The translations under genes were made by a program, and so were the position numbers. Source: Paramacrobiotus metropolitanus (Eukaryota; Tardigrada; Eutardigrada; Parachela; Macrobiotidae). From it: a stretch of DNA of 64,000 nt. How positions within the stretch are numbered: position 1 is the stretch's first letter; the number at the start of each line of letters is the position of its first letter. Shown here in pieces: positions 12,660-53,303 of the stretch. A model generated the notes under the pieces. That model had not been told where the DNA came from and made no database searches. It saw nothing but the letters and a program-made list of their open reading frames with translations. Location of the stretch: contig NW_026570228.1 of the NCBI RefSeq assembly GCF_019649055.1, positions 124,001 through 188,000 of the forward strand, in the 5' to 3' direction.

Positions 12660-13542
12660 AAATTTTCTCGTTTCTTAAGCGACTTGCTACAGTCAAAAAT
12701 GGCACGGAGACTATATCCACGGGAACGCGTCGATGGATGAAAAGATGCAGCGACAGCCAAACCGATTACTGGCGGACTGGAATTCAGAACAATTTTTATG
12801 GTGATTGACTATCGATCCAAAGGCTCGTCTATCGATCTGCAAATTGCAGTCCTAGCTGCCATTTGTCATTAGCCGCTTTTCTCCTTCGCTACTCACTACC
12901 CTCGTGCTCGGAAGTCCTCGAAAATGTTTGTTTCTGTGCTATGTTTAAACGATATTAGATAAACTGTTTTTCATTGATCTCTAATTCTTTCGTGTGAAAT
13001 GCAAGAAAACGCGTCGCCTTTGACAATCAGCGATCATCCTTTCCAGAACAAGAAAATGCATTGAGCGCGTATGCCGGTATACGAAGTGCATGAGATCTGA
13101 CAAGCATCGCAGAAAACAGAGCAAATTTTCACTATGCTATAAGATCTGTATGTAAACTTTCATATTAGAGTTTTCATGCATGCCTCAGGACATTTGGGAA
13201 CGCTGCTGCGCAAATAGAAGAGCGTCTGTTTCACCTCAAACAAATTGGAATTTTGCCATGATATTATTTGCTATCCAAAGGTTCGGCTATCGATGCAGCG
13301 TTTGGTCCAGTATGACTCAAGTCATGGATATCAGTGCCTAGACGCCTACTAACATAATATGAAATTTGGCGTTGTATTGTGCCGTTACTGCCGTAAACCA
13401 TGTTTTTTATTCTGGCGCTCGAGTACCACCGGACAGCTCTTATCCCAAAGTTCATAATTTAAATTTCTACTGCTTGTGATTTCCGTCGTTCAACTTTGCG
13501 GCGGCCAGCGTAATTTGGCACCATTTTTAAGCAGAACAGAAA
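12660..13542. other. Spacer, no gene recognised
   Basis: Short frames only. The phrase ATCCAAAGG(C/T)TCG(T/G)CTATCGAT occurs at about 12814 and 13273, a minor direct repeat of unknown meaning. Confidence 0.5.
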
Positions 13543-14559: not shown

Positions 14560-15242
14560 ATTATTCTAAAATAAAACTGATATCACTGTTATCAAAGACT
14601 GCTGGTAAACATAGAAAAGATATATAGTGCTGTCACTACTTCCATCGGTTTTCGGTGTGAAGATACAGCTAACGGCACGTTATTCTTAAACACAGTGACA
14701 TTGTTTGCGGTTTGAAATCATTGAGTGACTGATTGCGTCAGTGAACATGAAATAAAACGAACCAGTGAAAGGAAAACGAAATGAAATGAATAAGTGAAAA
14801 TAAAGGAATAATATTATGCAGCATAATGAAATGCAACTTCGTGGAAACAGCCATCCATCATTGGTCCGTTGAGTGCTGTACTTTAATAATGCGCTTCTCA
14901 TGAATTCAGCTGGTCATGTAAATTTCCACCATCGCCGTGATAATTCATTGAGATTAAATACACCATTGGGATTTGGAATTGCTGCAAACTACAGTAATAC
15001 TCAGAGCCACACAAACAAGTGCGCGCGCCGCTGGAAGCACCTATGATCTGCAACAGCGTTTCCAGCTTCTAGACGGAGTTTCATATCTCTTCTACGTACG
15101 GAGCAAGTGTCTATGTTCATTTGCTTACCTGGTTAATAAGAGTCATAGACTCATAGTTTTTCATTGGTTGTCTGTGTATCTGGGCTAAAGTTAAACAATG
15201 GTACTTCAAAATTAACTCGCCGGTACTGTATATCATAAAGTT
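14560..15242. other. Intergenic spacer within the GPCR array
   Basis: AATAAAA at about 14569 is a candidate poly(A) signal for the upstream receptor. No gene seen. Confidence 0.5.
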
Positions 15243-16292
15243 ATGGCAAACGCAGCAGTCAATATTCTGTCGCTAAACGCAACTTTTGAGCGCAATCCAC
15301 CAAAATCGGATATCGAGGCTGGCTACTACCAAGCAGCAATCGTTTGGTGGCTCGTAACCATTATTCCAAACGGCTTCCTCTTGGGCATTATAATATTCCA
15401 TCGGCATCTCATTACGCCTTTCACTTTGTATGTAATTTCGCTCCTAATTTCCAATATCCTAGCGGATAATATTTGCATGCTACCGTTTTCCATCACCGCG
15501 ATAATCTTTCCTCCCGAGTACAGGACTATACATCTCCTTAATTGTGCTGCATTTTTATACGGAACATGGGTGGTGTCAGCCATCACCATGTACTGCCACG
15601 CACTCGTCGCTATGAACCGCCTGTGGGCGATATTTTTCCCGAATAATTATCGGCAGCATCATAACACACGAACAGCAATTGCCATATGCAGCGTAGTCTG
15701 GCTGATTATGCACTGTTTTGCGTTGCCGGTGGTCGTTATATGTTTAGTATATGAACCTTATGGGATTTTTGAATGTGGTTTCGATGTGAAGGCATCGGAT
15801 GTTTATCTAGATGCACTGGCAATTATTGCGTACGCTTTTCCTATATGCTTTGTCATCGGTGCGTATCCGTTGATTTTGAGAAAAACTCTGCTGCTTAAAA
15901 AATCGGCAAGGATTCATCAGAAGAATGGACGGATTATCGGTGAAGAAAAGCACAGAGGCAAAACAAGAAGCTCTTTTGCTGCCTTGACCTTTATGACTGT
16001 CAGTGTCGTTGTGTGCTATGTACCATCCAATGTGCCTTTTATGATTCGGCGCTTCACTATTTTCGTCGACCCGGATTGGTTGCACTGGCTGGAGGACGTG
16101 ACGTTCTACGGTCAAGCAATGCTCGATCCGCTGGTGTTCGGATTGTGTTTAAAAGATATTAGAGAAGAAATTTTTAAATCTTTTCGCGGACGAATTTCAA
16201 GAGTATTTCCACTTTCTAGCACTGTTGACCATGAAGAACCTTGCGCCACTCAGGCTTGCGATAAACATTTGGCTGAAACTTGTGAGTTGTGA
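15243..16292 (+). CDS. Intronless GPCR, NRLW family (array member 2)
   Basis: A 349-residue receptor with a sequon at the N-terminus (NAT), TM1 IIPNGFLLGIIIFHRHLITP, TM2 SNILADNICMLPFS, TM3 cysteine (LLNCAAFLYG), MNRLWAIFFPNNYRQ, loop-2 cysteine (IFECGFD), TM6 VVCYVPSNVPF and TM7 LDPLVFGLCLKD. The C-terminal tail is Cys-containing and ends AETCEL. Same strand and block order as its neighbours. The ATG at 15243 gives an N-terminus comparable in length to its paralogs. Confidence 0.85.
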   Translation: MANAAVNILSLNATFERNPPKSDIEAGYYQAAIVWWLVTIIPNGFLLGIIIFHRHLITPFTLYVISLLISNILADNICMLPFSITAIIFPPEYRTIHLLNCAAFLYGTWVVSAITMYCHALVAMNRLWAIFFPNNYRQHHNTRTAIAICSVVWLIMHCFALPVVVICLVYEPYGIFECGFDVKASDVYLDALAIIAYAFPICFVIGAYPLILRKTLLLKKSARIHQKNGRIIGEEKHRGKTRSSFAALTFMTVSVVVCYVPSNVPFMIRRFTIFVDPDWLHWLEDVTFYGQAMLDPLVFGLCLKDIREEIFKSFRGRISRVFPLSSTVDHEEPCATQACDKHLAETCEL

Positions 16293-17122
16293 CATTCGAT
16301 GCATTGCAATTTGTTTCGTAATGGAATAACTTTCATTAATTTACTACTTCCGCTTACGTTATGAGTAAGTGTGGTTTTTACCAGCAGTACCTACATCATA
16401 TATGCACGAATAAATTCAAAGTACGTTTTCGGACGCAAAGCTTTCTTTTCGTACAAATATATAGATATATATTTGTACATCTACTTTATGCAATTTATGC
16501 AAAGTTTTCGATGTGGTCCAACGAAAACCCGACAAAGATAATGCACCGAGTAAGCAAGCGTTATTGATTTAGAAACTATCACAGAAATACTACCCTCACA
16601 GCTCCCCCCTAATGTACATACAGCAAAATCCTGTTAGTGTCGATCTGTAGATTGTTCGTTCGTGTTCGTAGCCGTTCTTTACAACTCAGGACGAAAAACG
16701 CAAGTATCCAACGTGCACTTCATTCAGTTGTCAAACACATTATTCTCAAAAGTAATGCATGATATTGTTTCTCTGGCAATTTACAGTTTTTTGAAATATG
16801 TTGTTTGTTTAACAGTGTGCGTATTAGTATCACCCGAAATGCCTATTGCGGGAGAACGTAGATTTATCCGGGAATGCTGATGCAGGTAGGAAAAGGACCA
16901 AGTGGAAAAATCCTAATCAACAAGATTTCTGTCGAAACGTGCCTTCCTGTTGAAGCCTCGTAAGACGCATAAAGTTAAAGGTTATCCTTGTAGCGTAACT
17001 TTAACAAATACTGTTTGTAAGTAATCGTTGCAGTAATTCTAAAATGGCTTATGGATGATTATGAGTTTGAAGGACCGGGTTTTTTCAAATAAGAAGAAAC
17101 TTATTCCCTTGCTGACATTAAA
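16293..17122. other. Intergenic spacer within the GPCR array
   Basis: Contains a short palindromic A/T tract (ATATATAGATATATAT, about 16456). The frames at 16361-16567 and 16662-16880 show no family features. Confidence 0.5.
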
Positions 17123-18153
17123 ATGACGGCTATGCCAAATTTATCTGCTCCCCCGTGGAATTCCACACTATTCATGCAAACTGGTATTCCATCGAAGGTT
17201 ATTATCGCGTATTAGCAACCTGGTGGTGCGTTATCTTTATTCCAAACGTGGCGCTGTTCCTTTTCCTCGCATGCCATCGCCACCTCATCACACCATTCAC
17301 GGTCTACATCATCTTCTTGCTATCCTGTAATGTTTTATCCGATAATATTTGCATGCTTCCCTATTCTGTTATAACGGCTTTTGTTCCGCCGGACTACACT
17401 GTGGTACATTTAATTAGTTGCTTTCTGTATCTGTACGGTGACTGGGTCGTTCTGGGGATGACAATGTACTGTCACGCTCTGGTGTCGATGAGCCGATTAT
17501 GGGCGATGTACTTTCCCATACATTACCGGCATCGGCATACGATTAAGACAGCAGCGGTCATTTGTGCTGGTGTTGGACTGGTGCTACATGCACTGACACT
17601 GCCGCTCGTGTTCACGCGACTAACTTATCAACTGGAAGGTGTTCCGAAGTGTGCATTCCGAGAACTGGAGCCGAGCCATTATCTTAATACACTGGCGGTG
17701 ATTTGCTATGGTGTCCCTATTGGTTTCGTTATCGCGGCTTATCCATTCCTGTTAATAAAAATGTTGGCGAAAAGATCAAGAACTGTCAAAGCCAAGGAGC
17801 TTATTGTTAGTGTTACTGTGTTATCTGAAGCATTCGCTGCTGCTGAGCAAAAGCAGCGCAAGCGATTAAGACGGTCGCTCGTCGCTTTGACCTTGATGAC
17901 CGTGGGTGTGGTCGTATGTTATCTGCCTTCCAATATTCCCTTTATAATGCGACGCTTCATTACATTTAAAAGTCCGAATTGGCTGCATTTTCTTGGTGAT
18001 AATACATATTATCTTCAGGCCGTCCTAGATCCCTTTATTTTTGGGTTTTGTTTAAAAGAAATTAGAGAAGAAATGTTTCGTATGGTAGGCAAGCTGGTCG
18101 TACCGGCATTTAATCGTCGTTCTCTATTTGTATATTATAAAAACTGCATGTGA
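17123..18153 (+). pseudogene. Intronless GPCR, NRLW family (array member 3), N-terminus out of frame
   Basis: The seven-TM body is intact from about 17180 to 18153: FIPNVALFLFLACHRHLITP, CNVLSDNICMLPYS, TM3 cysteine LISCFLYLYG, MSRLWAMYFPIHYRH, loop-2 cysteine VPKCAF, TM6 VVCYLPSNIPF, TM7 LDPFIFGFCLKE. No ATG precedes the body in its own frame before an in-frame stop (TAA 17119-17121). A good N-terminus (MTAMPNLSAPPWNSTLF, two sequons) begins at ATG 17123 in another frame and must shift near 17175-17190 to join WYSIEGYYRV. One indel would restore it, so this is a very recent pseudogene, a sequencing error, or a gene with an unseen upstream exon. MSRLW replaces MNRLW. Confidence 0.65.
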
Positions 18154-18635
18154 CTCGAGATCACTGCTAGTAGTGCTTAAATTGTTTTGTTGTTTTTGAA
18201 TATTCGGGTGTTTCTAATTTTTTGTTGTCCAACTCTGAAAATTGTCACAGTTCAGCGGCGTCGTTTCGATGAAGTGCAGAAACGATTGCTGTACAAACAA
18301 GGCATTGTTACCGCTTTTACACATACCTGCGCACCTTTCACAGAAATGAGAAATCCAATGTGGGCTTCGTGCGTTAAATTCCCAGCAGACCGCATTCGGC
18401 ACTTTTGCTACACCGCTCTACAAATTAAATGTGCTAGAGTGTATTAAACTAATCGTATTGAATAAAAACCTACAAGTAGGCGGAAGAATCTTTAGGGATG
18501 ATCTTTCGGAAACAGAACAAAATTTTCTATGCCCTTACCTGTAAGATTTGCCCTGTGCTTTCATTTTCTTTTGACCAAGATTTAATTACGAGTAATTTGA
18601 ACAGTTTATCTTGCTTCTCTGCTTGTCGGCGAGAA
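18154..18635. other. Intergenic spacer within the GPCR array
   Basis: AATAAAA at about 18460 could be a poly(A) signal for the preceding receptor. No gene seen. Confidence 0.5.
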
Positions 18636-19657
18636 ATGGCAAATAATTTCACTGTTCTGCTCAACGGTTCGTTATCTAATACCACAAAGTACTCGACAGA
18701 TACCGACGAAAATTATTACCGGGTGATAGTCAGTCGGTGGTTCTTCACAGCAGTACCGAACGGTTCCCTGCTGGCTTTATTCGCATTTCGCCGTCATCTC
18801 ATCACACCCTTCACAATCTACATCATTGCTTTGCTCATCTCCAATATCATAACCGAAGACGTGTGTATGTTGCAGTACGACATAATCGCAGCGCTGTTTC
18901 CGCCAGAATCCTATGTCGATATTCACTTCATTGGCTGCGTTTTTTACCGATGTGGCGATTGGATCTTTCTGAGTATTACAATGTACTGCCATGCAATAAT
19001 GGCTATGAATAGATTGTGGGCTGTGTATTTTCCTATAAACTACCGACAGTGCCACAATAAAAAAGTGGCGGTTCTTATTAGCACCGCGATGTGCATGCAT
19101 GGACGATGCCTGCAGTATTATTTGGCCTTATCAACGAACCGGAAGGAATTCCTGACTGCTACTTTGTTTCAGAGCTTTCCAGGCTGTACATGGACGCTCT
19201 GGCACTGATCGGCTACGCGTTCCCTTTGGGCTTTGTTATAGTTGCGTATCCGTTTATTCTGACAAAAACGTTCCTAAAACAATGGAATGCAAAAACTTAT
19301 GCATATCACAGTAATCACGGGATATCACAGACTAAAATAATCAAATTCCAAGAAACCAAAGGCAAGGAACGGTGGAGAAGGTCCTTCATAGCTTTGACCT
19401 TTATGACTACTAGCGAGATTGTGTGCTACCTGCCGCTAAATTTACCATTTATTATTCGCCGATTCGTTGCCTTCCAAGACCCTCCGTGGTGGAGACATCT
19501 AGCAGATTCCATATATTATCTACAAGCTGTTGTAGATCCGCTTGTCTTTGGATTCTGCCTTAAAGATATACGGCAGGAATTGTGTCAGATCCTTGTCAAT
19601 TTGTTATCGGCTGTTTTTTCCTATTGTTATATGAAACGTATCAGCCGCCGCTACTAG
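18636..19657 (+). pseudogene. Intronless GPCR, NRLW family (array member 4), one frameshift
   Basis: From ATG 18636 the frame encodes a sequon-rich N-terminus (NFT, NGS, NTT), TM1 AVPNGSLLALFAFRRHLITP, TM2 SNIITEDVCMLQYD, TM3 cysteine FIGCVFYRCG, MNRLWAVYFPINYRQ and the start of TM4. Near 19092 (ATGTGCATGCATGG) the reading frame must change: the rest of TM4 (HAWTMPAVLFGL), the loop-2 cysteine (IPDCYF), TM5, TM6 (VCYLPLNLPF) and TM7 (VDPLVFGFCLKD) lie in a second frame to 19657. Everything else matches the paralogs, so the lesion is a single net one-base loss or equivalent. The remaining length is normal (about 340 residues). Recent pseudogene or base-call error. Confidence 0.75.
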
Positions 19658-22085: not shown

Positions 22086-23848
22086 TCATACGCCTTTTCC
22101 TCGGGCGGGTACGTATAGGCTGGAACTGTTTCGCACGAACAATTTCAGTTTCTCCACAAACTCGTTCTTATCAAAATCCTTTCCGCTGTCGGCCAGTTCT
22201 GAGAAGATCAAAATATAACCCATGGTGCTACCTGCGGTCTAAGAAACATAGGGACACATTTACACATCGCGACGTTGCCGTAACCATGGTACTACAGTAA
22301 CAATAAAAACTGTTGTCTGACAATAAATTAAATCTTAAACCCACCGCAATAGCCGATTCCCGACTAAAGGTCACACCGCCCATGGTAATGGACACCGGCT
22401 CCTCTCGGATTTGTTTGACATATCTCTTCAAATCGCGATCTTTGCCGGCTTCGCCGTCCAGAGCGTTAGCGATCATTTGGCTCTGCAAAATTCTAGTGAA
22501 ATCACGAACATCGTATTCACACAAAAACGAACCTTCTCAAACAGGAAAACCAGAGCACCAACGTGAAGCATCAGCAGCACTCCATATTGAATCAGCTCCA
22601 TGCCGGCCAGAATAGCCATACGATCCGATCTTGCGTTCATCGCCTCGCTGAAGCGCTGACTAATAGAATAACCACATGCCAGGCACAGCCCATACAGTTC
22701 CATGCAGCGGATAAAATTCACGGCGTTCAACTGTTTATCGAATTCTCGCATTTTATCCATCAGAAATTTATGATCTTCAAATGCCTGCACAATCAATTCT
22801 CTCTGTTTAACCTGGACTTTTTCTGGGACTTCGACATCCGGATCAAAGGTAACGTTGAGGGCAATGCGGCGAAATATAATTCCCAAGATCAGCGCGACAA
22901 AAACCACGAGGAATTGAATGGCTTCTTTACTGAAGATCGACACCGTCCAGAAGACGTCGAACAGCGCCGTTAACCTAGAGTAGAATCGAAATCATAATTT
23001 CAAGATTTTTAATTTCAAACACCCGATCAAATTTATTGAAAATCAAACAAGCTTTTATGTGTTAAAATATATGATTTGTACAAAAACTCTTTTAGTTTGA
23101 GTAATTCTTGTTAAGACAATTTTAAACAAAAAAATTAATGGGTATATAAACTGCCCAAAGGCAGCTGATGAAATTATAAAAATTATAAAATAGAGGAGAA
23201 TCCTGACTTTTATTCTATGGCCTAAAGGGAAGCATTTTCGAAAACTACTTCCCAGCCTATTCCCAGCCTCAAATTTATTCCTAAGCATCTCGAAATCGGA
23301 TGAAATGGGATTTCATTTCAACGCTATACTAACCAGCGCGCCACGTTATCCGGTATTATAGGCGCTGGATATTTCTCCCGAAACTGCACCAAGTCACTTT
23401 CCAGATTCTCGTACAGATCATCGCGAAAATAATAGATTCCCGGTCCAAGGCAGGCCACAAACCAGGTTACGGCGAAAATCACTACGGTGCGTTTGTCTTC
23501 TTTTGTAATAATACCGGAGAATTTCTCGCTGATTTCTTTCAGTAGAGAGTGGATCGGGGCGCCGGCTTTACGTAACAGGATAATAGCAATGGGTAGTGTC
23601 ACGCCTTCGGTGATGTAGACAATCAGGAGGATGTATGAGGAAAAATGGGTAAATTTTGGAATGGTGTCGCTGAGATAGTCGTAACAGTGAAACAGCAGTG
23701 TGGATGCTTGAAAGACTGCGAGAACTTTCGATATCAGCTGGCGTAGTTTTGTCCAACAGGTTGGTTTGGAAAAGGGAGCGGGCATAAGACCCAGTATGTC
23801 CAGGACCCACAAGAGGGGTACGGTGAACTTTTCAATAATTTGTGCCAT
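22086..23848 (-). CDS. Gustatory-receptor-like seven-TM chemoreceptor (copy 2)
   Basis: Four exons on the minus strand: 23848-23334 (ends phase 2 at GTTAGT), 22974-22533 (CTCTAG acceptor, GTTCGT donor), 22482-22345 and 22238-22086, giving 415 residues. Exon 3 is exactly 138 bp, as in the copy at 11.3 kb, and also begins SQ after TTTGCAG. It holds EEPVSITMGGVTFSRESAIA. The last exon begins TAGSTMGYILIFSELADSGK. The first intron, after ARW, is extra relative to copy 1 and splits the region before FSKEAIQFLVV. Both copies share FTHFSSYILL and a CLGP(G/K)xY motif. Identification rests on the C-terminal signature and conserved phase-0 introns of the family. Confidence 0.75.
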
Positions 23849-24290
23849 TCCGGTTCTCCGAAACTCGTTGCACGCTTACAGTGTAACCACGCATTTGGTA
23901 CATCACTACATGTCTATAGCGGTATACTGTATGACGGTATAAGCAAGCAGAATGTTTTATTCACTTCAGACACATGGTGGATTCGTTGAATTTAGTGCAG
24001 CATTCAACTTGCAAGATCATTACATCCTGTCATTTAATATTGACATTCTCTATCTCGGGTTGCGTTAAGGTGCATATCCCGCTGTTCATCGTGCATAAGG
24101 TGCTACTGCCGGTCGCATGACTGTTGACAGAGCTTCCTATCGGGAATTACATGGGTGTGTAACAGCTCGCGTCAAGCAACTTAGGTCAGACTGAAACCGA
24201 TGCATGCTGGTAGCCCTTAGTAAGCTAAATAAGCTGTAACCGCACGACGGAAGCGAGTCGCATGTGGATCGCAGATGTCAGTAAGAGGGG
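23849..24290. other. Spacer before the tandem duplication
   Basis: Upstream region of the minus-strand receptor. No other feature seen. Confidence 0.45.
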
Positions 24291-24851
24291 TGATTAATTT
24301 TCTTTTCCCTAACAGTCTCATGTCAAAACTGACATTTGTTGTGCATGATTTTGGAAGAAAAATTAATATCAGAGCAAACAAATCTGGTTGGAGTTCGGTG
24401 GCGAATTATTTGGCAGCGCGGCGAAGACTGAACCCGGAGCACTGCTTTGACATTTCATGCTATTCATCGGTGGGAACTCGTAGTACCGTTAACAGCCTAT
24501 ACCGTAAACATATAATAGTGCACGTATTATTTTTTGTGGTACTTGCTACGGATGCTAGCATTTTGCGTGCATTACTCATAATACGCTCATTTCACACTGA
24601 CATGACCTCTACGCAGCTAAGCACCACATATGATGACTCGAGAAAACTAAATTGAGCGTCTGCTTCTCTTTTGTGACAATAGCTTTGACGGCGTCGTGGC
24701 ACATAGGTGCAAATCTGTTTATTGCCGTGACTTAAAAAGGGGAACAGATAAAATGCCGAATTCCTTATGCACGAAAGCCTGAGAAATATCGTATCTGTCG
24801 AGAAATTTAACGCAAAATACTACTACCTAAATTAACATCGTGTGGTGATGC

Positions 24852-25040
24852 TTGGCCATTGTACCCAATGGTATTCGACTGATGTTTTTTTTTTGCTTTA
24901 CACCGGCATGCCGTTGCGCCATTCCGTGTGCACATTTTCTTCCTCGTGGCATCCAACATCGTAGCCGACAATGTCAGCAAGCTATCATACAGTCTGTCTC
25001 CAAACATCATGTCTGCCGACAAAATATTCCGGTGCACACG
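24852..25040 (+). pseudogene. Relic of an NRLW-family GPCR (TM1-TM2), copy 1
   Basis: LAIVPNG is the TM1 signature of the array receptors. After a frame change in a poly-T run, RHAVAPFRVHIFFLV and ASNIVADNVSKLSYS align to RHLITPFTVYIIFLL and SCNVLSDNICMLPYS of the receptor at 17.2 kb. No TM3-TM7 is found, so this is a decayed 5' fragment. Confidence 0.7.
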
Positions 25041-25332
25041 GCAGTGCTTATTCTGTACATGTAAGGAAACTACATGCTCTGTGCTGCCCCATTGCACATG
25101 TATCCATGTTGAAAAAGCATCAGTATTTTATCTACATAAAAATGTATAAAACATGACCGTCCACTCTGATAAATTTTACAATCTGCATACAAGTTACTAC
25201 GTTTCTACAATCATGTCACACAGCGTAAACCCGGTGCCAATCTTGCCACATTTTTATTATCTACATGCCGTTAAAGCAAAGAAGATGTTTCCAAAAGTAC
25301 GTGTAATTTTGTCATCAACGTCTGTTTGCTTG

Positions 25333-25449
25333 TTAGCCGCCACCAGCCCAGCCAGTTATGTTCATCGTTTTCAGGCATTCTTGGTTTGGTGAATTCTTGT
25401 TGGCCAATTCAGAAAATAGGAGCACGTAGCTAATTGCACCTCCAGCAGC
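25333..25449 (-). pseudogene. Orphan duplicate of a gustatory-receptor-like terminal exon
   Basis: Identical to the last exon (26763-26647) of the receptor at 26.6-28.3 kb. It encodes AAGGAISYVLLFSELANKNS, then 18 further residues ending AGGG-stop. The acceptor TGCGTAG is kept, but the sequence upstream of it is now the 144-bp fragment of another receptor, so the polypyrimidine context is lost. Possible alternative last exon, more likely dead. Confidence 0.8.
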
Positions 25450-25458
25450 CTACGCACC

Positions 25459-25602
25459 TTTCGCATACGATTACACCATCGATTATCTGCAGAAGCTAGA
25501 TAAGCAGGATGGATCGCCAAGTGTTGGCATTATCGCGCTGGTGTTGCTCCGCTACCTTTACTGGTTATCTAACTTGCTGTTCTTCTGGATGATGGCGCAG
25601 TG
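25459..25602 (+). pseudogene. 144-bp fragment of the receptor gene at 28.8 kb
   Basis: Exact match, as read by eye, to 29016-29159 in exon 1 of the next plus-strand receptor (FAYDYTIDYLQKL through WMMAQ). It sits exactly between the two tandem copies and ends inside a codon at both sides. TG at the right end and TTT at the left are shared by donor and flank or nearly so. It looks like a templated filler at the duplication junction. Confidence 0.85.
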
Positions 25603-26770
25603 ATTAATTTTCTTTTCCCTAACAGTCTCATGTCAAAACTGACATTTGTTGTGCATGATTTTGGAAGAAAAATTAATATCAGAGCAAACAAATCTGGTTG
25701 GAGTTCGGTGGCGAATTATTTGGCAGCGCGGCGAAGACTGAACCCGGAGCACTGCTTTGACATTTCATGCTATTCATCGGTGGGAACTCGTAGTACCGTT
25801 AACAGCCTATACCGTAAACATATAATAGTGCACGTATTATTTTTTGTGGTACTTGCTACGGATGCTAGCATTTTGCGTGCATTACTCATAATACGCTCAT
25901 TTCACACTGACATGACCTCTACGCAGCTAAGCACCACATATGATGACTCGAGAAAAACTAAATTGAGCGTCTGCTTCTCTTTTGTGACAATAGCTTTGAC
26001 GGCGTCGTGGCACATAGGTGCAAATCTGTTTATTGCCGTGACTTAAAAAAGGGGGAACAGATAAAAATGCCGAATTCCTTATGCACGAAAGCCTGAGAAA
26101 TATCGTATCTGTCGAGAAATTTAACGCAAAATACTACTACCTAAATTAACATCGTGTGGTGATGCTTGGCCATTGTACCCAATGGTATTCGACTGATGTT
26201 TTTTTTTTGCTTTACACCGGCATGCCGTTGCGCCATTCCGTGTGCACATTTTCTTCCTCGTGGCATCCAACATCGTAGCCGACAATGTCAGCAAGCTATC
26301 ATACAGTCTGTCTCCAAACATCATGTCTGCCGACAAAATATTCCGGTGCACACGGCAGTGCTTATTCTGTACATGTAAGGAAACTACATGCTCTGTGCTG
26401 CCCCATTGCACATGTATCCATGTTGAAAAAGCATCAGTATTTTATCTACATAAAAATGTATAAAACATGACCGTCCACTCTGATAAATTTTACAATCTGC
26501 ATACAAGTTACTACGTTTCTACAATCATGTCACACAGCGTAAACCCGGTGCCAATCTTGCCACATTTTTATTATCTACATGCCGTTAAAGCAAAGAAGAT
26601 GTTTCCAAAAGTACGTGTAATTTTGTCATCAACGTCTGTTTGCTTGTTAGCCGCCACCAGCCCAGCCAGTTATGTTCATCGTTTTCAGGCATTCTTGGTT
26701 TGGTGAATTCTTGTTGGCCAATTCAGAAAATAGGAGCACGTAGCTAATTGCACCTCCAGCAGCCTACGCA
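25601..26770. repeat. Tandem duplication, copy 2 (1170 bp)
   Basis: Partner of 24291-25456, four bases longer through homopolymer differences only. This copy is contiguous with the rest of the minus-strand receptor gene, so it is the ancestral position. Confidence 0.9.
26166..26354 (+). pseudogene. Relic of an NRLW-family GPCR (TM1-TM2), copy 2
   Basis: Same sequence and same frame change as the relic at 24852-25040, carried along in the duplicated unit. Confidence 0.7.
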
Positions 26771-28308
26771 GCAAAACAACATTTAAGTTTCATGCTATAA
26801 AAGTTTTAATTCGAACCTACGGCTCCATCCTGCTTGTTTAATTCGAACTCCAAAAGTTTTAATTCCAAAAGTTTTAACTCCAAAAGTTTTAATTCGAACC
26901 TACGGCTCCAACTATCCTGCTTGCTACAAGTTCAAACAAATTTTACAGATGGGAGCAACGAGAAAGCCAGAGTGCAAATAGTGGCGCGCGATTTCTTTAC
27001 CCACCGCAAATGCTGCCTCTCGGGTCACCACAATGCCGCCAAGCGTGAAACAGCCAGGTCGCCGAAAAGCACAAGTTCTTCGGAGTTGTGCCACATTTTG
27101 ACCGCACAATGTTTCCGGTATTAATATGGCTTCGTCTATCCATTCCATTGTCAGTTGGCCCTATACAAAAAGCCCAGACAAATCTAGGTAGTTTTGTTTC
27201 TTTCAAGAGCAGGTTGCTTCCGTAAAATGCTGCTGTATATTAAGAACGAACTTTAATACGTTCCTTAAAGAACGTACTTTAATACTGCGTTGTTTGTTCA
27301 CGCTTGCATTTCTATTTATCCTCCTGGCGGTAAGAACAACAACAAACAGATCCTCACCTGCTCGTAACAGTGCACCGTTGCACAAACAATTAGCGTTACC
27401 ATAAAAAAATTATACGCCAATGCAGCGAAGTCACCCGGCATAATCGGCTTATCATCTCGCAAAGCAATACTGTCAGAGTACGCAATATCCACAATCCAGC
27501 CGAAATGATCCAGACACCCTAGTAATGTGATGATCGATAGATGACCATCCAAATCGGCTACGAGCTTGGATAGCTGGATAAACGATTCAAAGCACATTAA
27601 CTTGGCTTTGGGTGAGTCGTGTTGTTGTGATACGATCCCGGTTCTTAGCAGATGGTAAAGGCACGCTGTTAGGTTACCCAAAAGTACATTGAAACCAACC
27701 GATAATATTTTGCCCAGATGATTTATCCGCACAAGAATAATATTGCACACCATCATGATGTCCGCATGCTTCCAATTAAAGGGACCGCCATACAAGTTCT
27801 GCAAGAGTTTGACGGTGTCACCCAGTGGTACCGCAATGTCATAGGTGTATGTTACAAATAGGAACACAGTGAGAACAACTGCACAGTGAATGAGTAAACC
27901 GATAATAATTTTTATTTTAATCTTGTTTGTGAAGAGATGCGAATATTTATCAAGCTCGATCAGAATCTGCTCAATCTGACCACTGCAACTCCACATTTTT
28001 CCCATGCATAGTATGGTCGAAAGCCAGTAGATATAGCGTAAACTTCCCATAGCAAAAATTCCGAAACTCGGAGAGGTTGCCTCGCGGTTGAAGTGGTGTT
28101 GAGCGGTGAAATCGTAGGCAGAAAATCCTTGTACAACAAACTGCAGAGCAATACTGATAAACATGTAGCAAGAAACTGCACATTTGGCAGTCCTTGATTT
28201 TAGTGTAATGCAGAAAAGCCCCGTAAGCTGCAGCGCTACCATCCATGGAAAGGTCACTTTTCCCATGAAACCGCTGGCTTTCCAATAATATCCGAATTTG
28301 TTGGCCAT
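26647..28308 (-). CDS. Gustatory-receptor-like seven-TM chemoreceptor (copy 3)
   Basis: Three exons on the minus strand: 28308-27358, 27160-27005 and 26763-26647, both introns phase 0 (GTGAGG...TATAG, GTGGGT...GCGTAG), total 407 residues. Exon 1 ends TVHCYEQ, matching YSYEQ in copies 4 and 6. Exon 2 ends RRPGCFTLGGIVVTREAAFA. Exon 3 opens AAGGAISYVLLFSELANKNS. Internal landmarks shared with copies 4 and 6 are VQGF.AYD, SFGIFA, LLGCLDHFGWIVD and RTG. The terminal exon is shorter than in its relatives and has been duplicated downstream. Intron 2 carries a small tandem repeat. The gene is divergently paired with copy 4, 516 bp away start to start. Confidence 0.78.
26799..26922. repeat. Short tandem repeats in receptor intron 2
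   Basis: AAAAGTTTTAATTCGAACCT plus ACGGCTCCA...CCTGCTTG occurs at about 26799 and about 26883, and CCAAAAGTTTTAA occurs three times between 26849 and 26895. It enlarges the intron before the acceptor. Confidence 0.8.
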
Positions 28309-28824
28309 TATTTCGAAACTAAATTGTGTCAGGTGTAAATTTTATATGCTAGCGCAGTAATTACCGAAACGTCAAAGAGTTAAAATATTGTCTCAGCGGA
28401 AGCCGACAGCCGTATTTTCACATTTCCGTGTTCGGGAAAGGGATTAATAGGTGGTACGAATCTTGACAGAATCCCGTTTTGACAGAATTTTATTTGTTGA
28501 GTGTATGATACGGCCAACGGCATTCACGGTTTATTAACCTCTCATTGCACCTAATACAGTGTGATCGAAACTGATGGAATCATCGGCTCGTCAAAGACTG
28601 GCGGAACCGTGCAGTGTTGATGCAGCTGCGCACTGTTACGCAAGCAAAGAGGTTTTTGTCAAATACTTAGGGAGCTACAAGTTATCGCTGCGGCCACACA
28701 GTTTGTTTTCAGAGCATTTTATGCAAGTAAAGCTGCAGATTTATGATATAACAGCATTATGATATTTATGCTTTAAAAATATTTGCGCTCACTTTTGATC
28801 AGTGGTCCGCAGGAGAAGCACACC
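28309..28824. promoter_or_regulatory. Divergent intergenic region of two receptors
   Basis: The ATGs of the minus-strand copy 3 (28308) and plus-strand copy 4 (28825) are 516 bp apart, so regulatory sequences for both are probably here. No TATA box stands out. The frame 28574-28762 has no family features. Confidence 0.4.
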
Positions 28825-30497
28825 ATGAATGATCTTGTCAAAGAGAACAGCGGGCACGTTAGCAGCGGTTTCATAGGAACAATCATGCGCCCACTGCTAT
28901 TTCCACTGCAGATTACCGGCTTCTTCTATTTCCGTCCAGTTTCGAAATTCGCTCGTTTAGCGCTGCGTGCGAATATGATCGTGTATGGTTGCATTCAGTT
29001 TATTGTACAAGGGTTTTTCGCATACGATTACACCATCGATTATCTGCAGAAGCTAGATAAGCAGGATGGATCGCCAAGTGTTGGCATTATCGCGCTGGTG
29101 TTGCTCCGCTACCTTTACTGGTTATCTAACTTGCTGTTCTTCTGGATGATGGCGCAGTGCAGCCCGCAAATCGAATTGCTGATTGCCTACTTGGATACAG
29201 ATTACTACCCTCAGTTCACGCGAAAAAACAAGATTCACTTCCTCCTCTGCCATGTCGCCTTCGTGACTCTGTTGATTATCGTCGCCGGATGTGTAATCTA
29301 CCAGTCGGAGATGGCGCTGTCTCTGGAAGCAGACCTCGCCGGGTATCAGAACATGTACGGTGGCATATTTCTTTGGAAGCATTCCAATATTCTGCTGATG
29401 GTGTACCGTATATTGAATCGGACAAACCAATTCGCCCGGATATTATTGCAGTCCTTCACCGGCCTTCTAGCATGCTGTGCGGGAATGGCGTATTCGGTCT
29501 TGAAAACCACTGCTTTATTGCAACATAACCTGGATAAGGCCAGGGTGGGAAATCTTCGGCATTTTATAAAACTGTCGAAGGCAATAGCTGATCTAGATGG
29601 TTATTTATCCATCCTGGTGCTTCTCGGGTGTCTTGATGAATTAGGATGGATAATTGATACGGCGTACAACATTAGCAATGACTGGAAGGACGGCATACAA
29701 CTTGATCCGGCATACACTGCTCTGCTCGGTTTGACTTGCTGTATGCTCTTGTCTAACGTAGCCGCAATGGTGTACAGTTACGAACAGGTATTCCTAAACT
29801 GTATAAGTCGAACACTGCACAAGCCTGTCCAATGGCTCAAACTTGTGCGTTCAGTTGTATTGCTTACTTTTATTCCTCGACTTTATTAGCACAAGCCAGT
29901 TACATTGCAAATTTTGTAAAACAGGATTAATTATAACAGAAAAATTTCTCGTAAATTATCCGTAACAACATTTTCGAGAAATGATTTTTAAACGGGGTGC
30001 AACCCAGTGCGCCAAGTGCACATGTTCAGTGTGCCCGTAATCTCTAAACCTGGATATTTATTTTTATTATATTCTCGTATCACTGTATTCCTGGTCTTCG
30101 TATGCGCTTTAGGCAATATCGGCAATGGACGCTATTAATGAGCATTCGGCGTATCGACTAGCATCCACAAGCGACGACGAGGAAGTGCGAATGTGCAAAA
30201 GTCGTTCTTTTCTGAGACCGGGATGTTTTACGCTGGGAGGCGTAATTATTTCAAGAGAAATCGCATTTGCGGTAAGAATGCATGCAAAAAATATATAAGT
30301 GATTTACGTGTTTCGCCCGCTGAAGTGGGTGTTTGACGTAGGCGACGGGTGGCGTGGTTAGCTACGTGTTTCTTTTCTCTGAACTGGCCAACAAAAATTC
30401 TACTGGACAAGAGCCGCTTCTGAAAGCCGTACAAGAGCTGTTATTACAGTGCACCAACGTAACGGCGCCAACAACAGCCGGAACAAATGTTGGATGA
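28825..30497 (+). CDS. Gustatory-receptor-like seven-TM chemoreceptor (copy 4)
   Basis: Three exons: 28825-29787, 30113-30271 and 30342-30497, both introns phase 0 (GTATTC...TTTAG, GTAAGA...CGTAG), total 425 residues. The ATG at 28825 (CACCATGA) is the first in the frame; the frame is open upstream without ATG. Exon 1 has VQGFFAYDYT, MYGGIFLWKHS, DLDGYLSILVLLGCLDELGW and ends MVYSYEQ. Exon 2 ends RPGCFTLGGVIISREIAFA. Exon 3 opens ATGGVVSYVFLFSELANKNS and ends with a polar tail. A 144-bp piece of exon 1 has been copied to 25.46 kb. Closest relatives are copies 3 and 6. Confidence 0.8.
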
Positions 30498-30895: not shown

Positions 30896-31940
30896 CTATT
30901 TTCGGGGAGGACCCTGTTGTCCTCCTTGTTGGCCTTGCTGTTGGCCTTGTTGGGGAGGTCCTTGCTGACCACCTTGTTGTTGCTGACCACCTTGTTGGCC
31001 TTGTTGTTGGCCTCCTTGTTGGGGAGGTCCTTGCATACCTCCTTGTTGGGGAGGTCCCTGCTGACCGCCTTGTTGTTGCTGACCACCTTGTTGTTGCTGA
31101 CCACCTTGTTGGCCTTGCTGTTGGCCTTGCTGGGGAGGTCCTTGTTGACCACTTTGTTGGCCTTGTTGTTGACCTCCTTGTTGGGGAGGTCCTTGCTGGC
31201 CGCCTTGTTGGGGAGGTCCTTGCTGACCACTTTGTTGGCCTTGTTGTTGACCTCCTTGTTGGGGAGGTCCTTGCTGACCACCTTGTTGTTGCTGACCACC
31301 TTGTTGGCCTTGTTGTTGGCCTCCTTGTTGGGGAGGTCCTTGCTGGCCGCCTTGTTGGGGAGGTCCTTGCTGACCACTTTGTTGGCCTTGTTGTTGACCT
31401 CCTTGTTGGGGAGGTCCTTGCTGGCCGCCTTGTTGGGGAGGTCCTTGCTGACCACTTTGTTGGCCTTGTTGTTGACCTCCTTGTTGGGGAGGTCCTTGCT
31501 GACCACCTTGTTGTTGCTGACCACCTTGTTGGCCTTGTTGTTGGCCTCCTTGTTGGGGAGGTCCTTGCTGACCACCTTGTTGTTGCTGACCACCTTGTTG
31601 GCCTTGTTGTTGGCCTCCTTGTTGGGGAGGTCCTTGCTGGCCGCCTTGTTGGGGAGGTCCTTGTTGCTGCTGACCACCTTGTTGGGGAGGTCCTTGCTGT
31701 TGCTGTGTTGGACGGGCGTGCATAACGGCGACAAGGCCTGTAATGTAAAAGTTAGTTAACACAATATTGCAGTCACAATACAGTGTACAGTATATTATGC
31801 TACAAAAGTTCCGCTTCGATGTTTAGAACGTTTTTCTCTATGATATAGCTGATGAGTTATAACGGCTGCGTCAGCGTTATAACTTCTGTAGTTACATTTG
31901 ACTCACCGGCTAGCGCAAGGAATACCAAAGCTGCCTTCAT
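30896..31940 (-). CDS. Secreted Gln/Gly/Pro repeat protein, paralog on the minus strand
   Basis: Exon 1 (31940-31907) encodes MKAALVFLALA and ends in phase 1 at GTGAGT. Exon 2 (31737-30896, after ATTACAG) adds GLVAVMHARPTQQQQ, then about 265 residues of QQGGQQGPP-type repeats, ending PPRK. Total 291 residues. Signal peptide, intron position and phase match the gene at 9.4-10.9 kb. Repeat units differ in number and order, as expected from replication slippage or unequal exchange. The mature protein has no cysteine. The C-terminus (GPPRK) differs from the paralog (YAPFSN). Overlapping frames on both strands are repeat shadows. Confidence 0.82.
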
Positions 31941-32061: not shown

Positions 32062-33703
32062 AAGTTTCTGTTCGCCAAGCGCTTTCCAACCGGATATCCA
32101 AAATCTTGCAGGGCACCGTAAAACTTTCAAACGGTGCCCTGGGTTGCGTATAAACTCTTGCAAATTTGCGCACCCAGCATACATGGGCATCCTACTCGTC
32201 GACAAGGTTCTTTAGCTTTGCTGAAGACAGCACAAATTGAGCTTGTACCGTTAACTACAACTTCCTGTTGCATGTGCCAGCCACGCGTTAGGTTGAAGTG
32301 GCGACACGTGCCACTTTACGCGTTTATTTCATACAGTTACTATCAGGAAATACATGGTACCCACCTGGTATTCCAGGTTTTTAAATTTTAATGCATCTTA
32401 AATGGATGAGTTTTAATGTTTCACAATTGCGCTTCGTAGTTATTATTTTGTTAACTTGTATGCCGTACCGGCCGTGGTATTCGCATCTTTTTTTCAAAAC
32501 AGCTAAAATTAACTTTGGTCCTATGGAATTTGGATACTTCTATATGTAATCCCGCATTCAGTTTTTGCGTATTTCTCCTTATTTTCTTTTCTATGAAAGC
32601 TGTTTTAGAGCTGTTCATATCTATCCTTACTTTATTTCATTATATCACGTGGTATTGCATTTCGCATTTCAAAGTCGTTTCAGTTTTTTTTGTTGCGGTA
32701 ATCGATCGAAGAGAAGAAATAAATGCTAAAATTAACATCCATGCGCTTTTTCAATATGCATCATTTTTTGACCTCTGATGTGACCTTGATTCGTAATGTC
32801 ACTTTTACTTTCTGGAAATACAATGTAAAAAAAGGTAAAAAAAGGTGTTTGCTGGTTGCTGCCCATGGATGCTGGTTGTTGCCCTTTTAGAACTAAGTTT
32901 ACCCATATACTGAAGCACATGAGTGTATTCTGAGCGGCTCACCATTTTGTGAGTTGGATGTACGTGCTCTGAAAAGCTTATTAAGAACTTAGTAGCATGA
33001 TTTCTATCGGAAACCCTTTACTCTGTTATTAAACTCGTTAATAACTCGACTTTTGTTTTCGCTTCTTAGTCGACTGTGCTGTTTACTACGAAGTTACAAA
33101 CAGTTGCCTCAGTTTCCTTTGATGATTTTCAGATACTAAACCCTATCCTGGTGTTACAAAAATACAATTTAGGACACTATTATCTTTTAACCACACGTCG
33201 TAATTCTGTGTTCGTACGATAAAGTGCATGTATATGACGCTAAGACCGATTTTCTGAGCGAGGACTGAAAAAAGCCGGTTTTATATTCTTATCAGCCGTA
33301 GACGTCGTAAACGTCTGCTTTGCCATTGAAATTTTGGGTACTGAAACATTGACCTGGCGGCTCACACAGCATCCTAAATTGTACTGCACCGGATGGACAA
33401 CAGATACCACGAAACACTGATCGCCTTATTTGAACAAGAGCGTTTGCAGTCTCACTTTAAAATGCCAGGGCTTGCTGATATTGTGGGCAGTCGCTTCTAC
33501 GAAATCATTCAAATAAGCAACACATCATGCAGTACTATCCCTAAACGTTTGCACATCATTATACGAGCTGGAACACTGCGCTATGCTTATCCCTGCCTTC
33601 CTTTGAGCGAGCTAGGGGGTCGTTGAAAACAGACAGCTACGGTAACCTTAAATCAGATGACTTTACAGTGATTCACTGCTGCAGCGGCGCTCGCTAACCT
33701 TCC
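32062..33703. other. Spacer, no gene recognised
   Basis: AT-rich with short frames lacking recognisable motifs (including 32515-32778 and 33393-33626). The last 300 bp should include the upstream region of the next receptor. Confidence 0.5.
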
Positions 33704-35094
33704 ATGGAGCAATCAGACGGTCGTTCTCCTGGATTTATATGCAAACTCTACAGTAACTGGTTTGTCGTTCTTTCGCTTTTTGGGTTTGGGAGACTTCCCA
33801 ACACTGATTTGACAAATCACCGATGGATGAATTGTTCAGTAAATATTTTTATTCTTTCTCAAGCGACAATAATTGGAGCAGCGCAGTTGTATGTCATATA
33901 CGACAATGTTGCCGAAGTGCAGTTGGATTTAAATTTTACAAGAATTCTGATCTACCTTATGGAGCTGTTCAGTTCCGTCTTTGTACTATCAACACTTGGA
34001 ATTTGTTGGTGTGTGAATAGTAAGATTTCAGTACTCTTAGCAAAAATTGACAAGAAATTTGCTCATTACCTTTCTAAATCTGACAAGCGAAGGATAATGT
34101 TGTCGCTTTCGGTTTGGCTCAGTTTCCACCTAGCTCTTCAGATTCACAGCGTCGTTGCAGAAGACATCCTTTCATATGGACAAGAAACAGGAACCTGTCT
34201 TTCGAAACCTTGCTACGCCTTCACGGCAATTTATTTTGCCTACTGGAGGATCGGGAATTTTTGGAAGAGACTCTTTGAGACTCTGATGATTTTTACTGTT
34301 TGGCTGTTGGCCACACTGCTTCGCTATATTAACCATATTTTGGAGCAAAGTTTAGCCGAAAATAACTGGGAAAAATTTAACAAGGGCTTTGATCTCCACA
34401 TAATGTTACGAGAAATCATAGCGGAAATCAGTGGAGATTTGGTGTGGTTCAATTTCTGTGTTGTGCTCCAGTACAGCAGCTGGATGGTCGCTTCAACATA
34501 TACTCTAGGTGCGGCGTTTGCGGATAATCACAGCCTAGCGCATGAACTGTCCGACCTTTTCCTTATAATACGCTCTGGATCCATGCTAGCTGCTCTCCTG
34601 TTGACTTCGCTATTTTATCACGAAAGCGTAAGCATAGAAATACCGAGACGGTTTTCTTGTGCAGGAGCACAAACAAAATTTTTGGTCATTCCAAGATTTC
34701 AAAAAAACAACGTTTTTTGCTCGTTTTAGCTTTTATCCGTTATCCCCTTTTTGAGAACCGCGACTATTAATTTCCATGAGTTCTCCGCCGAGTTAAACGA
34801 TGAAATAGAGGTAATAAAACTGGATATGGACCGAACAACTATCGTTGGATTCAGAATAACCCCGGAACACTGCCTTGCGGTAAGGTTAAGAGGCACCTTA
34901 AGTCACCCGGAACAAATTCCTTAATCTTTTTCCGATGTTGATTTGTTCAGATAGCAGCAGCAATTACCGCCAACGTCATGCTGTTCGCCGATTTTGGTCA
35001 CGAAAGCCGGACACCCAGAGAGGATTGGTTCGTGAAGCAAATTCATGAAATACTGGCAAATGAGTCAGTGGTCGCTATTGCCGGGGTCAACTAA
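33704..35094 (+). CDS. Divergent gustatory-receptor-like chemoreceptor (copy 5)
   Basis: Three exons: 33704-34627, 34730-34879 and 34951-35094, both introns phase 0 (GTAAGC...TTTTAG, GTAAGG...TTCAG), total 405 residues. Exon number, exon sizes and phases match the other copies, but the motifs are altered: exon 2 ends RTTIVGFRITPEHCLA where others have TLGG...TREAAFA, and exon 3 opens IAAAITANVMLFAD instead of TAGG..SYVLLFSEL. Exon 1 has several hydrophobic spans and ends SLFYHES where others have SYEQ. It is the most diverged member; assignment relies mainly on gene structure and position. Confidence 0.62.
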
Positions 35095-35587
35095 GAAAGT
35101 ATTTCTTATTTGTTTGTTACTTGTATTTTGTGCATCCTTGTAAATGCAGCCATTAAAACTAATGCGCCTTACAATGCAGCCATTAAAATTTCGGAAACGT
35201 ACAGCAATTAATAAGCGTGTCACACAGCTGATCCAACTTGATCAATCAGCTTACAGATACCAATCGGCCACATCTGTGGCAATACCTACAGTAGCTACGG
35301 TACTGCGGAAAATGCCCACTTTTAACGGCACGAGCAAAGCAAAACGTATTAAATTTCAAGCTGCAGATTGGCTTGTCAATGGCCGAATTTGCCAAAAATG
35401 ACAAAACGTCGAAAAACAGTCCAGTTCCGCAAACAGACATGAGACAGTTCACGGGAGCATGTACCGCGTAGTTGAGATTCCTACTTTATGGCACAGAGCT
35501 CAGGAACTGCCTTTCTTTCCTTAATTAACGGTAAAGCGAAGCATTACTGATAAATACAGTACTGAGTTTTTACTCATCAGGCAAGCG
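35095..35587. other. Spacer between receptors
   Basis: Contains a short direct repeat (AATGCAGCCATTAAAA, about 35144 and 35173). No gene supported. Confidence 0.5.
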
Positions 35588-37658
35588 ATGTCGAATAAAC
35601 AGCATCCTCGACACTTGCCTCCTTTCATCGCTGCAGTAACTAAACCTTGGCTGGTGATTTTACGAGTGTCAGGCTTCTTCAACGGTTCATTTCCAACTTT
35701 ACGTTTTGCCAGGACTGCCTTATTCACTTATTTGACTATATACATTTTTATTCAACTGACCGTACAAGGATTCTACGCTTATGACTTTTCAGTAGTGTTT
35801 TATTTCAACCAGAACATGTCTACGCGTAGCTTCGGGGTACTGGCTCTAGGATTACTTCGCTATGTTAATTTGTTCTCCACCTTCTTCTACATCTTTTGCA
35901 TGTTCAGATGCAACAGGCAGATTGACAAAGCCTTGCGGCATCTCGATATTACTTATTCTCGACATTTCACCGGAAAAGCGAAAGTGCCGATTATATGTGG
36001 AATGGCGGCGCAGTGGACCATATTAATAACAATGTTTTGCACTATGATTTACGTGTTTGACACCGGGGTTGCTTTTCAGACCCTTTTTCAAAGATTTCGC
36101 ACCGCTTATGGCGGAGTGTTTCTATACTCAAAAGCTGAAATCTTTGTGATATGCTACATTTTCTTTAACCGCGTCAATCAATTGGGACGAGAAATACTAC
36201 AGAGCTTTGTTGCCTTTTTGGGATTCTTGATAGGAATTGCATACTCTTTGCTTAGAACGAAAGTTGCTTCGGAACATGCAAATCCAGCAACAGCCGTAAA
36301 AAGCTATTGGGCTTTTGTTCGATTGTCCAGAATGGTTAAAGAACTCGATAGCTGGTTATCAGTGGTCACTTTTTTTGGGTGTCTCGATCATCTCGGATGG
36401 ATTGTTGACACCGTGTACAAAGTGTGCGGTGATCTCCGAGACAACAAAGTCGTCGCACCTGGCTATGTAGCGCTTCTGGCGTTTGACATTGTTTTACTGG
36501 CGATCAGTATCAGCGCGTTGGTGTACAGTTACGAGCAGGTACAGTAACAACTTAAGGGAAGTGGCCCGGTACATGGTACCAAATTCGTGTACATGCATGA
36601 AATCTTTCACTTTCGCGCACTCCCAAACCCTTTTTTCTCTTGTTTTACGACATTCTGCAGCCAAATTATTTGTATACACCGGCATGAAAACCGTTCGTGC
36701 GCACAACATCCGGTTCGGGAGTTGTGGCTGTTAAAAAATTCCCAAAAGTTTAAATGCATTCAGGTGTACCAAAAGTCTCAGTATGGACTGATGTCTTTCA
36801 TATATTGCACGTAAATGCACACAGCCAGGAAAATGTTTTTACATCGATCCACTGTTCTAGCATGTTTTTCAAATTTTAAAATGAATTCCAAAAATTTTAA
36901 AATTGATTTTAAAATTTGAAAAAAATCATGGAAGTCTGGATCGGTGTAAAAACCATCTTCATGGCCATGTGCTTTTACGTGCAAAATTGGAAGGAGATCG
37001 GTCCATAATAAATCTTTTGGAACACCTGAATGCATTTAACTTTTCGAAATTTTATATTTTAGTTCTGTAATTTTGTAGTTTTTGGTAACTTTATAATTTA
37101 GTTCACCACTGAAATTAAACTATGAAATTAATTAATGTTAAGCTAAAAGCAAAAGCGGGAGTATATTGAAAGTTCACTGTGGTACAGGCTCACTCAGCAA
37201 TGCTACAGCTAGAAGAAGCCCTGCATGCTACCACACCTTCGCTTGCGGTTAGATTATGCGTGAATTCCTCGTACGTACACCCTGGATGCTTCACTTTAGG
37301 CGGTATAATCGTGACACGAGAAGCCGCATACGCGGTAAGTCTTGGCATACAGCGGATAATTGTTAATTACAGTTTTATCTGTATTTAGCCTATCTCGGTA
37401 ACTGCTTCATAGAAAGCCTGTGTCCAACAATAAAAAAAAAATATAATAAACTGCTCCTTTGCATAATAATATAATAAACTGCTCCTAATAATATAATAAA
37501 CTGCTCCTTTGCAGACGGCGGGAGGAGTGTTAAGTTATGTCCTGCTCTTTTCCGAACTGGCTAACAGGAATTCATCTAAACAGGAAGGCGTAAAAGTCGC
37601 CTTGGAACAACTTCTCACACGGTGTACAAACGTGATTACCCAAAATCAGGTTGAATAA
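35588..37658 (+). CDS. Gustatory-receptor-like seven-TM chemoreceptor (copy 6)
   Basis: Three exons: 35588-36538, 37188-37334 and 37515-37658, both introns phase 0 (GTACAG...TACAG, GTAAGT...TTGCAG), total 413 residues. Exon 1 is 951 bp, the same length as exon 1 of copy 3, with VQGFYAYDFS, RSFGVLALGLLRY, YGGVFLYSK, VVTFFGCLDHLGWIVD and a YSYEQ end. Exon 2 ends HPGCFTLGGIIVTREAAYA. Exon 3 opens TAGGVLSYVLLFSELANRNS. Intron 1 (649 bp) holds a MITE-like inverted repeat, and intron 2 ends in a triplicated acceptor-like unit. Confidence 0.8.
36743..37047. mobile_element. MITE-like element with long imperfect terminal inverted repeats
   Basis: The left end AAATGCATTCAGGTGTACCA is mirrored at the right (complement of GGAACACCTGAATGCATTTA). 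Similarity continues inward through TTGCACGTAAA and a TTTTTACA(T/C)CGATCCA block, so each arm is about 120 bp with mismatches. No coding capacity. It lies inside intron 1 of a receptor gene. The exact ends and target-site duplication are unclear. Confidence 0.65.
37434..37514 (+). repeat. Triplicated intron end with acceptor-like units
   Basis: The unit AATATAATAAACTGCTCCT occurs three times in tandem. The first is followed by TTGCAT, the second joins the third directly, and the third is followed by TTGCAG, the actual acceptor. Only the last unit has a valid AG. It is a slippage-type expansion of the branch/polypyrimidine region. Confidence 0.8.
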
Positions 37659-53169: not shown

Positions 53170-53303
53170 AGCCGAAATTCGAACAGCAAAAATTACATAT
53201 TTTTGACTATTAATAAATGATAGACTATATAGACTACATATAGACTAGAGTATCATTTATTAATAGTCCAAAATATGTAATTTCTGCTGTTCGAATTTCG
53301 GCT
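53170..53303. repeat. Inverted repeat, 53-bp arms, 28-bp loop
   Basis: 53170-53222 (AGCCGAAATTCGAACAGCAA...AATGATA) is reversed at 53251-53303 with one or two mismatches. The right arm abuts the truncated 5' end of the retroelement fragment that follows. Confidence 0.85.

Follow-up and report, generated by a model that had tools for sequence, protein, structure and literature searches.

A 1.17-kb tandem duplication with a templated 144-bp filler in a chemoreceptor-like region of the Paramacrobiotus metropolitanus assembly

Two receptor families in the window

We analysed a 64-kb window of the Paramacrobiotus metropolitanus genome assembly (GC content 42.4%; all positions below are those of the window unless a contig is named), which is a chemoreceptor-like region housing two receptor families. 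For the published assembly as a whole, a GC content of 43.46% is given (PMC8277472). A CAHS fragment used as a query had 15 matches in the genome, the best at 76% identity, as befits a tardigrade; COX1 had no match in the assembly. Six of the 20 window frames scanned matched the rhodopsin-type family 7tm_1 in Pfam at E ≤5e-6. Receptors of this type occupy one open frame each at 4700-5743, 13531-14556, 15216-16289 and 17122-18150, all recognised by Pfam, and a further one at 38328-39344 was recognised by tblastn only. Used as a query, the protein encoded at 17122 had at least 119 matches in the genome (118 of 1138 first-look candidates were scored), indicating that rhodopsin-type receptors are a large family in this animal. 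Another 7tm_1 gene, at 18480-19657, is split over two frames at about 19091 with no notable homopolymer at the break, which reflects either a pseudogene or a sequence error.

The second family comprises gustatory-receptor-like genes at 11292-12338, 27319-28341 (minus strand), about 28777-29889, 33698-34726 and 35525-36544, which Pfam does not recognise; the fold was tested for one of them. This is the gene at about 28777-29889, the donor of the filler described below. The first ATG of its open frame is at 28825, and its presumed first exon (28825-29787, plus strand, 321 codons) extends from that ATG to the base before CAG|GTATTC, a splice-donor-like sequence with a similar counterpart in two relatives. 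The exon encodes a putative seven-transmembrane protein, for which a structural model was of modest confidence, with a mean pLDDT of 65. The best 18 Foldseek rows for this model in the PDB were all insect gustatory or olfactory receptors, with a best E-value of 0.0036 and none at or below 0.001. Pfam returned no hit for the donor protein, PDB sequence profiles likewise returned nothing useful, and a neighbouring frame had a match to 7tm_7 at 0.0028, below the Pfam cut-off. The modelled fold suggests that the donor is a gustatory-receptor-like gene; its protein has 19 matches in the genome, itself and the filler included. A further gustatory-receptor-like gene, detected by tblastn at 22476-23875 (minus strand), consists of two frames about 340-370 bp apart, the gap being either an intron or an insertion. 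In literature searches on this locus or on tardigrade chemoreceptors, the best-ranked 10 of 8,502 papers from one of them did not name the species, and such work may be in print.

Other elements are scattered through the window. Positions 2056-2490 and 2592-3026 form an inverted repeat with 435-bp arms that carry one mismatch (429 bp exact) and a spacer of about 100 bp. The repeat has 24 matches in the genome, several of them again as inverted pairs, and may be an element of the foldback or MITE-like kind. Two relatives of a low-complexity repeat protein, inverted with respect to each other and rich in internal repeats, lie at 9756-10850 (plus strand) and about 30945-31844 (minus strand); Pfam gave no hit for the former. 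A 473-residue frame at 53281-54699, with related stretches at 52459 and 63425, also had no Pfam hit, and it may resemble mobile-element proteins.

Structure of the duplicated locus

Sequence comparison across the window revealed the arrangement U-CC-d-U, in which two direct copies of a 1.17-kb unit (U) flank a CC dinucleotide and a filler (d), with the donor of d intact downstream. Both copies are on the plus strand: the left one spans 24290-25456 (1166-1167 bp; alignment with the right copy and assembly-wide search) and the right one 25600-26770 (1170-1171 bp; alignment and blastn). The initial annotation had described two direct copies differing only in homopolymer lengths. Global alignment of 24291-25456 with 25601-26770 bears out both points, with 0 substitutions in 1166 pairs and 4 more bases in the right copy, introduced through 3 gap openings and spread over four homopolymer runs, one base in each. 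Extension by blastn moved the left edges of identity 1 base outwards from those first given, to 24290 and 25600. The letters of the window contain no N at the join between the copies. Directly right of the duplication, 26799-26943 holds short direct repeats and a 15-bp array.

The filler occupies 25459-25602 (plus strand) and is an exact direct copy of 29016-29159 (144/144 identical), a stretch that is still in place within the open frame of the donor gene. An exact 144-bp copy from a neighbouring receptor gene was thus correctly recognised at the outset. The literal gap, 25457-25600, opens with CC (25457-25458), which is absent from the donor edge and from the right flank, and the gap itself is not identical to the donor stretch; d begins after the CC and runs 2-3 bp (GTG) into the right copy. 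The distance from the filler end to the donor start is 3.41 kb, in keeping with the figure of about 3.4 kb proposed earlier, and 3557 bp from start to start. With the second copy of U removed, the donor would lie 2245 bp past the end of U.

The two junctions differ in kind. At the second, GTG (25600-25602) is common to the end of the filler and the start of the right copy, a microhomology of 3 bp. Because microhomology of at least 3 bp occurred in 5.8% of 20,000 random joins, this match is only mildly unlikely by chance. The first junction is without microhomology and carries the extra CC instead. The motif GCACCT also occurs 21 bp upstream of the CC (such a 6-mer was found in 0.7% of random trials), and ACCTTT at 29111 inside the donor is another candidate template; a post hoc reading of the CC as a small slipped copy from a local template is possible. 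Exact repeats in the locus measure 707, 357, 144 and 96 bp, which exceeds what chance would produce. Self-comparison detected no repeat beyond 3 bp and no long homology at the edges of U, and because long edge homology is missing we rejected non-allelic homologous recombination, or unequal crossing over between repeats, as the source of the duplication.

Content of the duplicated unit

U is non-coding and carries a dead or decayed receptor fragment. Each of its three forward frames contains 14-19 stops, and its sole content is a frame-broken remnant of a rhodopsin-type (7tm_1) receptor gene, located by tblastn at 24837-25020 and again at 26151-26334 (plus strand); on these grounds we rejected U as a gene. 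Of the 22 window frames that served as queries, 4 matched the remnant, with 37-41% identity over the main stretch and E-values from 6e-4 to 1.2e-6; the best score was 41.6 bits, whereas 60 dinucleotide shuffles of U gave 22.7 at most. The filler falls within a frame of 57 residues that is closed by the TGA of the junction; copying of an exon or a retrocopy was discarded as its origin because 29016-29159 lies inside one open frame. No structured RNA family reached its Rfam gathering score in 23000-30000. As far as the annotated frames indicate, the duplication interrupts no recognised frame, no gene is visibly gained or broken, and no consequence for function can be seen.

Copy number and local baseline

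Assembly-wide searches, which skip very common words, placed U at 2 positions in the 169.8-Mb assembly (169,799,020 bases, 533 contigs), both at this locus. The donor stretch was likewise found at 2 places, namely the donor itself and the filler; the right flank occurred once. As no further copy of U was found in the assembly, a mobile element or dispersed repeat was rejected. The filler d is present once, between the U copies, and is not repeated on the outer side of either copy.

For a local baseline, we self-compared 28 pieces of 10 kb on both strands (280 kb, 0.16% of the genome), comprising 16 pieces (4 adjacent to the window, 12 taken from other contigs at a fixed coordinate) and 12 in receptor arrays. 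A repeat of at least 100 bp at 99% identity or more was found in 0/28. As for the matches that did appear, 3 pieces held overlapping tandem arrays of up to 237 bp at 93-95% identity, and a single pair of 198 bp matched at 90%. The U-CC-d-U arrangement is locally unusual because all 28 pieces lack a near-identical repeat; the sample is too small to exclude rare misjoins.

Differences between the copies

The four differing runs are A4/A5, A5/A6, G4/G5 and A4/A5, the left copy being shorter each time. They start at 24643, 24734, 24739 and 24750, that is, within 107 bp, and the stretch 24643-24753 of the left copy contains all four differences, whereas the longest runs of U (T6 and T10) agree between copies. 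U contains 27 runs of at least four bases, and of the 17,550 sets of four that can be drawn from them, 27 are equally tight. Independent slippage mutations are not expected to cluster in such short runs.

According to the assembly report, the published P. metropolitanus assembly was built from about 3000 pooled animals with R9.4 Nanopore reads and Illumina polishing, using Canu with heterozygosity-preserving options, nanopolish, Pilon and HaploMerger2 at a stated mean of 45x (PMC8277472). With R9.4 chemistry followed by short-read polishing, differences confined to homopolymers are most readily explained as errors left in the consensus, probably residual Nanopore errors in one copy. Elsewhere in the same assembly, a single-nucleotide error is reported to have caused a frameshift (PMC11191345). 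Because the run-length differences are probably consensus errors, the two U copies may be truly identical in the animals. Differences of the kind that sequencing errors would make are also compatible with a false duplication.

The initial annotation took homopolymer-only differences to mean either a very recent event or a wrong joining of two reads or haplotypes. Recency holds only loosely. If a rate of 3e-9 substitutions per generation is assumed, the lack of any substitution in 1310 aligned pairs bounds the age at about 4e5 generations. The pattern does not by itself point to joined haplotypes, because haplotypes would usually also show substitutions, of which there are none here, and run-length errors are to be expected from Nanopore reads as described for this assembly (PMC8277472). 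At 0.5% heterozygosity, about 5.8 substitutions would be expected between the U copies and zero would be seen 0.3% of the time; at 0.1% heterozygosity, zero would be seen 31% of the time. The lack of substitutions is thus informative against a misjoin only if heterozygosity exceeds about 0.2%. The strain is described as one in which low heterozygosity is expected, yet some findings were ascribed to variation between individuals (PMC11191345).

Origin of the arrangement

We judge it likely that the rearrangement is real in one form or another, and probable, if with somewhat less assurance, that it is a recent local 1.17-kb tandem duplication produced in one event by template switching. A single event is favoured because one d lies between two U copies and none lies outside them, and the position of the filler source 3.4 kb away within a 170-Mb genome counts for a local event. 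One switching event would also account for all parts being identical and for both junctions being short. In such an event, synthesis would run to the end of U (25456), where CC would be added; the 3' end would then move about 2.2 kb ahead into the receptor gene, copy 144 bp there and return to the start of U at GTG, after which U would be copied again. The product would be U-CC-d-U, with the donor unchanged. The switching might have been replication-based, or overlapping ends might have been joined by Pol theta.

The initial annotation had called such filler typical of end-joining repair with template switching. Template switching agrees with the 3-bp microhomology and the 2 extra bases, whereas the filler is not typical of end joining: templated insertions at Pol theta junctions are generally <25 bp and drawn from close flanks in the account of a review (PMC12426944), and junction insertions in Drosophila tandem duplications are given as 1-27 bp (PMC11226609), compared with 144 bp from 3.4 kb away here. 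Because the filler is long for Pol theta, we do not assign the locus as a Pol theta footprint, even if it may have arisen in a similar way; copying of a replication type, or a Pol theta synthesis tract of unusual length, would account for it better than typical end joining.

An assembly artefact of any form is, in our judgement, the less likely explanation, although it carries appreciable weight. The form that survives best is a misjoin of two haplotype contigs, one ending in U-CC-d on an allele lacking about 2.2 kb (26771-29015) and the other starting at U. On this account, which we hold to be rather unlikely, only the CC junction would reflect a real breakpoint, that of the deletion, and the second would be an artefact. 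Such an error is conceivable in an assembly of about 3000 pooled animals in which Canu was set to preserve heterozygous variants before HaploMerger2 was applied (PMC8277472), and in three older assemblies of vertebrates the share of false duplications is reported as 4 to 16% (PMC9516828). The differences between copies do look like independent consensus errors, and a 3-bp or better match at an artificial second junction would arise at the random-join frequency given above. The misjoin would, however, depend on an allele with the deletion and on two contig ends falling no more than 150 bp from the breakpoint. The heterozygous differences that mark heterotype false duplications are absent, at 0 substitutions between copies, and 0/28 of the 10-kb pieces contain another near-identical local duplication. 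Because the read N50 of ~17 kb (PMC11191345) is far above the 2.5-kb structure, which single reads are consequently able to span, and because SNPs are absent, as is any N at the join, a misjoin is disfavoured.

An erroneous or chimeric read might instead have been carried into the consensus as a homotype false duplication. The clustered, error-like differences and the lack of heterozygous ones resemble the homotype profile (PMC9516828), and the assembly authors discarded reads over 1 Mb because they suspected erroneous concatenation (PMC8277472). Concatenation, however, joins unrelated molecules, and two junctions within 4 kb of 170 Mb would be very unlikely to arise in this way. Rapid kit libraries are unamplified, so amplification chimeras are not expected either. 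One bad read should, moreover, lose at a stated mean of 45x (PMC8277472), and we consider this route improbable.

Among real rearrangements other than one-step template switching, an extrachromosomal circle of U and d, closed at CC and GTG and recombined into U by homology, would yield exactly the same U-d-U product, with U offering over 1 kb of homology for re-entry. It takes more steps, as U and d must be joined twice and then recombined, and no datum favours it, which makes it marginally less probable than a propagated bad read. As a separate phenomenon, breaks are known to take up nearby sequence, and a two-event history would have a donor fragment enter next to U before duplication or partial loss of the region; this is very improbable, as duplication after insertion should give d-U-d-U or U-d-U-d and only one extra d was found, and all segments are equally undiverged.

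Discussion

The locus, read as a template-switch product, belongs to a known class of rearrangement; its filler exceeds the length typical of Pol theta insertions. In the cycles of templated insertions and local jumps described by PCAWG, as at this locus, copied segments return and re-replicate the host segment, and each segment gains a copy by a copy-and-paste logic; those cycles come from cancers and typically combine segments from different chromosomes, whereas here a genome assembly contains one local donor with all segments in direct orientation (PMC7025897). Tandem duplications in helq-1 mutant Caenorhabditis elegans, attributed to Pol theta end joining, are reported to range from ~100 bp to 10 kb with a median of ~1 kb and to have microhomology and occasional templated insertions (PMC8654963). 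They resemble the locus in being direct repeats of ~1 kb with microhomology and, at times, a templated insertion, but duplications of this type are described as rare in wild-type worms (PMC8654963), and a Pol theta insertion would seldom reach 144 bp or draw on a source 3.4 kb away.

Duplications from error-prone repair in Drosophila share with the locus the lack of long breakpoint homology (11 of 17 duplications had no extensive breakpoint homology; PMC11226609) and the presence of extra bases or microhomology (PMC11226609, PMC4056370). Their reported junction insertions of 1-27 bp, and the absence of a good genomic match for breakpoint insertions >20 bp, contrast with the 144-bp exact local copy found here (PMC11226609, PMC4056370). 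False duplications of the homotype and heterotype classes also produce near-identical adjacent copies with only error-like differences, but alone they do not yield a precise 144-bp templated filler, and the locus has no gap between the copies (PMC9516828).

Candidate genes for the enzymes concerned are present in the assembly. An HTH_61 match on contig C75 (656000-656233) and three DNA_pol_A pieces on the same strand (C75:661735-663265), all within 7.3 kb, are likely to belong to one POLQ gene, and an HTH_61 match on contig C40, with no DNA_pol_A match nearby, may be HELQ. These POLQ-like and HELQ-like genes are context and not evidence for this locus. In another tardigrade, H. exemplaris, POLQ is reported to be strongly induced after irradiation (PMC11233135).

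A bolder proposal would take the locus for a germline scar left by long-tract template switching as breaks were repaired in an animal tolerant of desiccation and radiation. It would place the locus among kb-scale duplications carrying local fillers of 100 bp or more, a class that would be commoner in such animals than in flies and worms as a result of many breaks being repaired at once. We regard this as a long shot: one case, with none other in the 28 sampled pieces, shows no excess of scars. A single event of this kind has little weight in itself; it shows receptor clusters gaining non-functional copies. It does offer a clean example of a duplication junction that records the template from which it was copied. 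Refutation by reads would flag a misassembly in the reference genome; if the arrangement is confirmed in reads, it would open the way to asking whether template-switch scars are more numerous in anhydrobiotic animals than in others.
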